A program made the position numbers and the translations under genes. DNA of 64,000 bases, taken from Paracoccus bogoriensis. GTDB taxonomy: Bacteria; Pseudomonadota; Alphaproteobacteria; Rhodobacterales; Rhodobacteraceae. The notes under the pieces were generated by a model. The model worked only from the letters and a program-made list of their open reading frames with translations. It ran no database searches and was not told the DNA's origin. The DNA lies in the NCBI RefSeq assembly GCF_019431455.1, contig NZ_JAHYSR010000011.1, forward strand, positions 1 to 64,000, written 5' to 3'. This document shows positions 35,438 to 36,794 of the stretch, in pieces. Within the stretch, counting starts at the first letter, position 1. Every line of letters begins with the position of its first letter.

Positions 35438-36193
35438 TCATGCTCCTTGAATGAGACGCCAGAAGAAGATCGCGGTCATGCCGAAGCCCACAAGGGCGAT
35501 CAGCAGCCGCAGGACAGGTCGCGGGATGCGGCGTGCGACGGGGGCGCCCGAATAGCCGCCGATGATCGTGCCAAGCGCCATGATCGCGGCCGGTCCCCAG
35601 ACGATGCTGCCTCCGGCGGCAAAGACGGCAAGGGCGATCAGCGACAGCGCGAAGCTGAGCCAGCTTTTCAGCCCGTTCATCTGGTGCAGGTCGGTCATGC
35701 CCCACATGGCAAAGACCGCCAGCATGATGATTCCGAGCCCGCCGTTGAAATAGCCGCCATAAACCGCCATCGGCAGCAATGTGCCCAGACCGAAGGGCGT
35801 CACCGCGCGGCGCCAGCGCGAGGCCGCGCGGCGGACCTGATCCGACCAGGTAAAGACCACCGTGGCCAGCAGCAGCAGGAAGGGGACCAGCATGGCAAAG
35901 CCCTCGTTCGAGCTGACCATCAGCAGGCCCGCGCCGACCGCGCCCCCGGCCATGGTCCAGATCGTGACGCGCAGCAGCGGCGCGCCCTCCATCACGCGGA
36001 TGTCCCGGCGAAAGCCCCAGGCGGCGGCCAGATAGCCGGGCAGGGCGGCCACCGTCGTCGTAGCATTGGCCGCGACGGGCGGCACGCCGGTAAAGACCAG
36101 CGCCGGAAAGGTGATGAAGGTGCCGCCGCCCGCCACTGCGTTCAGCATACCCCCCAGAACGCCCGCAACGAACAGCAGCACGATATCGAACAT
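35438..36193 (-). CDS. TSUP/TauE-SafE family membrane permease
   Basis: 251 residues and about eight membrane helices. The repeat signature GGMLNAVAGGGTFITFPALV near the N-terminus and GTIIGGYSGAPVARRIPRPV in the second half are typical of the sulfite/organosulfonate exporter family; substrates vary. It precedes the RidA-like gene. Its promoter must lie in the 133 bases shared with mmcB. Confidence 0.88.
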   Translation of the reverse strand: MFDIVLLFVAGVLGGMLNAVAGGGTFITFPALVFTGVPPVAANATTTVAALPGYLAAAWGFRRDIRVMEGAPLLRVTIWTMAGGAVGAGLLMVSSNEGFAMLVPFLLLLATVVFTWSDQVRRAASRWRRAVTPFGLGTLLPMAVYGGYFNGGLGIIMLAVFAMWGMTDLHQMNGLKSWLSFALSLIALAVFAAGGSIVWGPAAIMALGTIIGGYSGAPVARRIPRPVLRLLIALVGFGMTAIFFWRLIQGA

Positions 36194-36291: not shown

Positions 36292-36320
36292 TTGCCGATG
36301 TTCCGTTCCTGTTCTATCTT
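36292..36320 (+). promoter_or_regulatory. SOS promoter with LexA box GTTC-N7-GTTC
   Basis: GTTC at 36300-36303 and GTTC at 36311-36314 are separated by exactly seven bases, the LexA operator of Rhodobacterales and other alphaproteobacteria. The box fills the spacer between a TTGCCG (36292-36297) and a TATCTT (36315-36320) with 17 bases between them, so LexA binding would block polymerase. Transcription would begin at about 36326-36328, at the mmcB ATG. Confidence 0.8.
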
Positions 36321-36326
36321 GAGAAA

Positions 36327-36794
36327 ATGAACGTTCTTTCGGACAATATCTCGCCTCTGCCCGCCATGCCCGGCCAGCGCCTTGCGCGTGGGGTGGGGCG
36401 GCTTCTGCGAAGCCTCGATCATGCGGTGCTGACAGAATTCGTGCCCGTGCGCGGTCTGCGGGTTGATCTGATGAGCCTGGGCCCCCGGTCCGAAATCTGG
36501 GTCGTCGAATGCAAGAGCGGCCGCGCCGATTTCATCTCGGACCGGAAATGGCAGGGCTATCTTGACTGGTGCGACCGCTTTTTCTGGGCGGTGGACGCGG
36601 AATTCCCTGCCGATCTGCTGCCCGAGGGGACCGGCCTTATCCGGGCCGATCCCTTCGGCGCCGAAATCACGCGCATGGCCCCCGAGACACGGCTGCCGGG
36701 CGCCAGGCGCACCAGACTGATGCGCGATTTCGCCCGGGCTGCGGCCTTGCGCTTGCAGGGGGCCGCCGATCCGGGCGCCTTCAGCGACGCCTAG
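36327..36794 (+). CDS. mmcB: MmcB family DNA repair protein
   Basis: 155 residues, restriction-endonuclease-like fold: ending of beta strands with EIWVVECKSGRADFISDRKW gives the D/E...ExK type motif. In Caulobacter, mmcB is an SOS gene that adds to mitomycin C resistance. The LexA box directly before the start agrees with this. There is almost no room for a Shine-Dalgarno, and the promoter predicts a transcript starting at or next to the ATG. The gene is convergent with the DUF6324-like gene and overlaps its 3' end by 14 bases. Confidence 0.88.
   Translation: MNVLSDNISPLPAMPGQRLARGVGRLLRSLDHAVLTEFVPVRGLRVDLMSLGPRSEIWVVECKSGRADFISDRKWQGYLDWCDRFFWAVDAEFPADLLPEGTGLIRADPFGAEITRMAPETRLPGARRTRLMRDFARAAALRLQGAADPGAFSDA

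Follow-up and report, generated by a model that had tools for sequence, protein, structure and literature searches.

The mmcB locus and its promoter region

The window analyzed in the present study, a contiguous stretch of 64,000 nucleotides from Paracoccus bogoriensis, carries on the forward strand the DNA-repair gene mmcB, a coding sequence of 155 amino acids plus a stop codon (36327..36794), the product of which matches the MmcB-like profile PF06319 with an E-value of 2.1e-44 and 151.3 bits (cut-off 22); no NCBIfam family match was obtained for this product. Nearly all of its approximately 30 best named protein relatives belong to Paracoccus, with a Paracoccus sp. MAG being the top relative at 90% identity. 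A divergent TauE/SafE-type gene (PF01925) starts at 36193 on the opposite strand, which leaves 133 bases between it and mmcB.

Upstream of the mmcB start codon ATG (36327-36329) on the same strand, a -35 element, TTGCCG (36292..36297), and a -10 element, TATCTT (36315..36320), are separated by a spacer of 17 bases (36298-36314), the first two of which are AT. The remaining 15 bases are taken up by a LexA box of the GTTC-N7-GTTC type, GTTCCGTTCCTGTTC (36300..36314), which directly adjoins the -10 element. The placement of the box inside the spacer, as claimed in the preliminary description, is a matter of direct reading. Only six bases, GAGAAA (36321..36326), lie between the -10 element and ATG, which is too short for a ribosome-binding site. 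The A of ATG lies seven bases downstream of the last base of the -10 element, and the -35 element begins 35 bases upstream of it, i.e., at -35 when this A is +1. This promoter geometry is in agreement with the earlier proposal that transcription starts at or within a base of the mmcB ATG, and the predicted start (+1) is 36327 on the forward strand, give or take one base; the mRNA would then begin with its ATG start codon, as a leaderless mRNA does. The box overlaps the promoter, and the genome's own lexA has such a box, both of which are features of a LexA-regulated promoter.

When -35 and -10 hexamers were scored jointly at gaps of 0-40 bases before this ATG, the best pair had a gap of 6, a spacer of 17, and 8/12 matches. 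The generic promoter scan had a threshold of 9/12 matches, and hence did not list the mmcB promoter. The one promoter-like match from the scan, at 36319-36347, overlaps the gene start; it was rejected because its hexamers span the region of the -10 element and ATG and no support for it was seen in relatives. Over its first 50 bases, the predicted mmcB mRNA folded no better than shuffled sequences, which is a neutral result.

Conservation of the box, start codon, and promoter register in Rhodobacteraceae

The DNA upstream of mmcB was read in one genome from each of 129 Rhodobacteraceae genera, including that of the present strain, and a box was accepted with one mismatch at most in its eight GTTC letters. 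This set was obtained from 134 family genomes with mmcB by leaving out G057, two partial loci (G187 and G162), one split locus (G089), and G063, which was transferred to a same-genus set of 25 rows (23 of 24 relatives with a match, the present genome, and G063). The box was found before mmcB in 117 of the 129 genera, being exact in 104, in a sample of related genomes that are not independent of each other; it was absent at this stringency from 12 genera and one same-genus row. Of these 117 rows, all but one had an in-frame ATG located 9 to 14 bases behind the box (116 rows), at a distance of 11 bases in 67 rows and 12 bases in 35, with 9, 10, 13, and 14 bases accounting for 4, 5, 3, and 2 rows, respectively. 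As a control, in-frame slots 15-60 bases behind the box contained ATG in 60 of 1794 cases. In the single exception (L036), the nearest in-frame ATG was 17 bases behind the box, and neither GTG nor TTG occurred at 9-14. The layout was present in 24/25 same-genus rows and in 78/80 rows of a named set that overlaps with the other sets. It is also found at mmcB of the laboratory species Paracoccus denitrificans (L098).

In the 112 rows measured, the distance from ATG to the conserved RGxxR motif of the protein ranged between 9 and 44 codons, with 18 different values. Since the N-terminal length varies and the spacing between the box and ATG is tight, the box follows ATG and not the conserved domain. 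Regarding the box itself, the left half-site (36300-36303 in the window) is GTTT rather than GTTC in 17 of 24 Paracoccus rows (relatives L002-L024 and L034), and GTTC in 103 of 115 rows from other genera. This substitution may weaken LexA binding and, thus, the operator in Paracoccus. The GTTC in the middle of the box (36305) is not kept in the nearest relative, L062.

The promoter register was conserved along with the box. When positions were numbered from the A of ATG (+1), TTG started at -35 (66 rows), -36 (21 rows), or -34 (14 rows) in a total of 101 of the 116 rows, and a NANNNT hexamer ended 5-7 bases before ATG in 101/116 rows (gap 6 in 68, gap 7 in 23, and gap 5 in 13; a row may be counted repeatedly). 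These are the usual places of the -35 and -10 elements for a transcript that starts at the A of ATG. Among rows with ATG 11 bases behind the box, the commonest letters read CTTG at positions -10 to -7 relative to the box and CATATT beginning with its final base. When hexamers ending 3-15 bases before ATG were compared with TATAAT, the single best match was located at 11-15, inside the box, in 42/116 rows, and transcription could start a few bases further upstream in these cases. In the same 42 rows, TTG at -34 to -36 was kept in 39 and NANNNT at 5-7 in 31. Under joint scoring of both elements with gaps of 0-40, the best position was 5-7 alone in 75 of the 116 rows, 5-7 on a par with another position in 22, and a different one in 19.

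A gapped alignment of the window with L062 showed identities of 37/37 from -170 to -134, 42/44 from -133 to -90, 33/47 from -89 to -43, and 35/42 from -42 to -1. The promoter is kept better than the adjacent 47 bases, but not better than the DNA where the divergent gene begins. An impression of divergence upstream of approximately -42, which had come from an ungapped comparison with L062, was not supported by the gapped alignment and has been withdrawn; this and the above -10 results slightly lower our confidence in the favored explanation.

As a motif by itself, the box is weak evidence: GTTC-N7-GTTC has three matches in the window against 1.16 expected, at least three were reached in 11 of 100 shuffles, and the motif is, thus, not above chance there. 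In the genome-wide search for the box that the preliminary description had proposed, the bare motif yielded 92 matches in the genome of this strain against 63 for the reversed pattern, and the box with an ATG 10-14 bases downstream yielded 6 against 0. By reading, two of these six places had a promoter and gene start, namely, those of mmcB and of a radical SAM gene of the PA0069 family. In the genomes of 12 other genera, the box with an ATG 10-13 bases behind it occurred 90 times against 25 (column sums), and 12 of these 90 places were chosen by eye for a closer look. The position of the box and its conservation are strong evidence, with the comparison of relatives placing this position far above chance.

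Several box-like sequences were noted elsewhere in the genome. GTTCTTATAACGTTC (three copies) and GTTCTTGTAACGTTC (one copy) occur near the starts of four contigs (C15:70-84, C26:50-64, C33:388-402, and C37:42-56), as if the assembly had been interrupted by a repeated element to which they belong. Two other box-like sites are found near genes named by eye only, one SRAP/HMCES-like (C28:16559-16573; L293) and one UvrD-like (C5:27007-27021; L294).

Shine-Dalgarno pairing was assessed between bases -20 to -4 and the 16S tail, with a threshold of -4 kcal/mol or lower. This threshold was reached before mmcB in 0/116 rows (the present strain and 115 relatives), consistent with the view in the preliminary description that mmcB has no convincing Shine-Dalgarno sequence, and in 6% of shuffled 17-mers with the same letters. 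lexA served as a positive control, using the 30 best family loci of 57 genomes with a match, and reached the threshold in 30/30 with a mean of -8.3 kcal/mol. The nearest exact box in these loci was in the reverse orientation 19-202 bases before ATG (none was found in one of the 30), and TTGAC matches were located 59-117 bases upstream (29 matches). Based on its Shine-Dalgarno pairing in all 30 loci and the distant TTGAC matches, lexA looks leadered, and the method separates both kinds of genes. The present genome itself encodes LexA (PF01726 above the cut-off), and its lexA has GAAC-N7-GAAC 19 bases before the start. In 12 of the 30 lexA promoters (L328-L357), exact GAAC-N7-GAAC boxes are situated 11 bases apart and, thus, share a half-site.

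A second gene and the distribution of the promoter outside the family

Regarding the PA0069-family gene, the layout in the genome of this strain (C11:59461-59490; L297:101-130) is the same as that at mmcB, with TTGCAG, a spacer of 17 bases containing GTTCCGATAATGTTC, TATCAT, six bases, and ATG, and the gene behind this promoter encodes a PA0069-family radical SAM protein of 359 residues (NF033668, 472 bits, cut-off 360). In a sample consisting of the 30 best loci (43 of the 61 genomes searched had a match), with starts set by the in-frame ATG, the box followed by ATG 11-13 bases behind was present in 29/30 loci, 28 of which had an exact box; the box was in the reverse orientation in the remaining locus (L320). 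TTG was found at -34 to -36 in 19/29 and NANNNT at gap 6 in 17/29, and Shine-Dalgarno pairing at the same threshold was detected in one of the 27 rows scored.

Outside the family, the comparison covered 57 mmcB loci that represent 55 families of Alphaproteobacteria (from 61 genomes with PF06319, leaving out G000 and G194, which belong to the same family, and the partial loci G253 and G289). Only six of these 57 loci had an exact upstream box when both orientations were considered. An in-frame ATG was present 9-14 bases behind the box in five of them (L256, L269, L377, L379, and L381, the last two of which are from one genus) and 4 bases behind it in the sixth (L368). A strict leaderless promoter was observed in 9/57 loci against 0.85 expected from other positions in the same loci, and was not seen in the other 48; the -10 element alone was observed in 13/57 against 5.08 expected. 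Three of the nine strict loci had a Shine-Dalgarno-like stretch at that ATG, and eight were without an exact box. Within the family, a -10-like hexamer is still found 5-6 bases before the mmcB ATG in some box-less rows, e.g., L228 and L235, and is not kept in others, e.g., L024 and L239.

These distributions suggest a leaderless promoter that predates the LexA box or is more widespread. We tentatively propose, as a possibility that we regard as somewhat less than even, that a subset of the SOS regulon in Alphaproteobacteria, namely, mmcB and the PA0069-family gene, is leaderless by design, the box having been fitted into the spacer of an older and wider leaderless promoter. DNA damage would then release messages that begin with AUG, while lexA stays under Shine-Dalgarno control, and one regulon would use two modes of translation.

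Proposed leaderless SOS control of mmcB

The explanation that we favor, and consider likely, is that mmcB is transcribed from a LexA-repressed leaderless promoter of the sigma-70 type. In an undamaged cell, LexA bound at 36300-36314 would cover the spacer as far as the border with the -10 element and exclude RNA polymerase. After DNA damage, LexA would be cleaved, polymerase would start at the A of ATG (36327), and the ribosome would initiate at an AUG located at the very 5' end, with no Shine-Dalgarno sequence. The box, the promoter elements, their spacing, the lack of a Shine-Dalgarno sequence, and the conservation of these features are seen in the sequences themselves, while LexA binding, induction by damage, the precise position of the 5' end, and the leaderless mode of translation are what we infer for mmcB. 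The preliminary description is right on the anatomy of the promoter and very probably also on the leaderless start.

The tight spacing between the box and ATG throughout the family is what a leaderless start predicts, and there is no obvious reason for a leadered gene to maintain it. If the main mmcB mRNA instead began further upstream with a leader, short or long, and LexA acted as a repressor or roadblock on a message that used the same ATG without a Shine-Dalgarno sequence, the common register of the -35 element, box, and ATG across the family would be left unexplained, as would the fact that ATG tracks the box despite a variable N-terminus. We regard such an upstream start as improbable, even though non-Shine-Dalgarno mRNAs are described as common in Caulobacter (PMC4117421), 133 bases separate mmcB from the divergent gene, joint scoring puts the best -35/-10 pair outside 5-7 in 19 of the 116 relatives, and no part of the alignment with L062 is more conserved than the region 90-170 bases upstream, in which the divergent gene begins.

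The fixed position of ATG behind the box would also go unexplained if the true start codon were further downstream, e.g., the ATG at 36366, which would give a leader of approximately 39 bases. This codon occurs in part of the same-genus rows; however, it is absent from many relatives, no Shine-Dalgarno sequence was noted before it by eye, and the codons between the first ATG and RGxxR have a bias resembling that of coding sequence (GC1 0.76, GC2 0.465, and GC3 0.694 in 1806 codons), which makes a downstream start very unlikely. At least as improbable, and in our estimate slightly more so, is a chance match that leaves mmcB outside LexA control in this organism: the motif alone is expected approximately once in the window, but a box at one position in 117/129 genera and the same type of box at the genome's own lexA both argue against coincidence.

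The assignment of mmcB to SOS control, as put forward in the preliminary description, fits what has been stated for Caulobacter in a review (PMC9578287), according to which mmcB is SOS-regulated, the box there is of the GTTC-N7-GTTC type, the gene was placed in the LexA regulon by da Rocha 2008 and Lopes-Kulishev 2015, as cited in that review, and MmcB has nuclease activity and protects against mitomycin C. The comparison with Caulobacter covered SOS control and the type of box, both of which are shared. The lexA promoter of the same family resembles that of mmcB in having a GTTC/GAAC-N7 box upstream of an SOS gene, but differs in that its box is reversed and farther from ATG and a Shine-Dalgarno sequence is present.

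Leaderless mRNAs, in which the mRNA starts at the start codon as predicted for mmcB, are not rare in Alphaproteobacteria; 375 have been reported in C. crescentus (PMC4117421), 171 in S. meliloti (PMC3616915), and 119 in Zymomonas (PMC7566282). The term "SOS" is absent from the main text of the C. crescentus article, as is "LexA" from that of the S. meliloti article, and the main text of an in silico LexA survey of Dinoroseobacter (PMC6473078) contains mmcB, DUF1052, and leaderless 0 times. Among the open-licence papers searched, no description of a leaderless mmcB was found in titles and the starts of abstracts. On the other hand, a leaderless SOS transcript, which had been presented as a new detail, is not new as such: lexA of M. 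tuberculosis has been reported to be leaderless (PMC2897130; listed again in PMC3062782), and represents a gene of the LexA system in which the translation start is the transcription start, as predicted for mmcB. M. tuberculosis recX is also leaderless, with SOS control of its internal promoter not being stated in that source (PMC3062782). Mycobacterium belongs to a different phylum, and it is lexA itself that is leaderless there, whereas the lexA loci examined in Rhodobacteraceae look leadered and have a Shine-Dalgarno sequence, and mmcB and the PA0069-family gene are the candidates for leaderless expression.

The individual parts of this system are already known; the tight geometry throughout the family together with a partner gene provides a clean and testable case, with a precise prediction that is common to most of a bacterial family. 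The layout described herein may also help in annotation by fixing the start codons and promoters of mmcB and PA0069-family genes. If the prediction is true, the PA0069-family radical SAM gene would be a likely co-regulated partner of mmcB, and leaderless translation in Rhodobacteraceae would be used by a conserved portion of the SOS response, but not by lexA.
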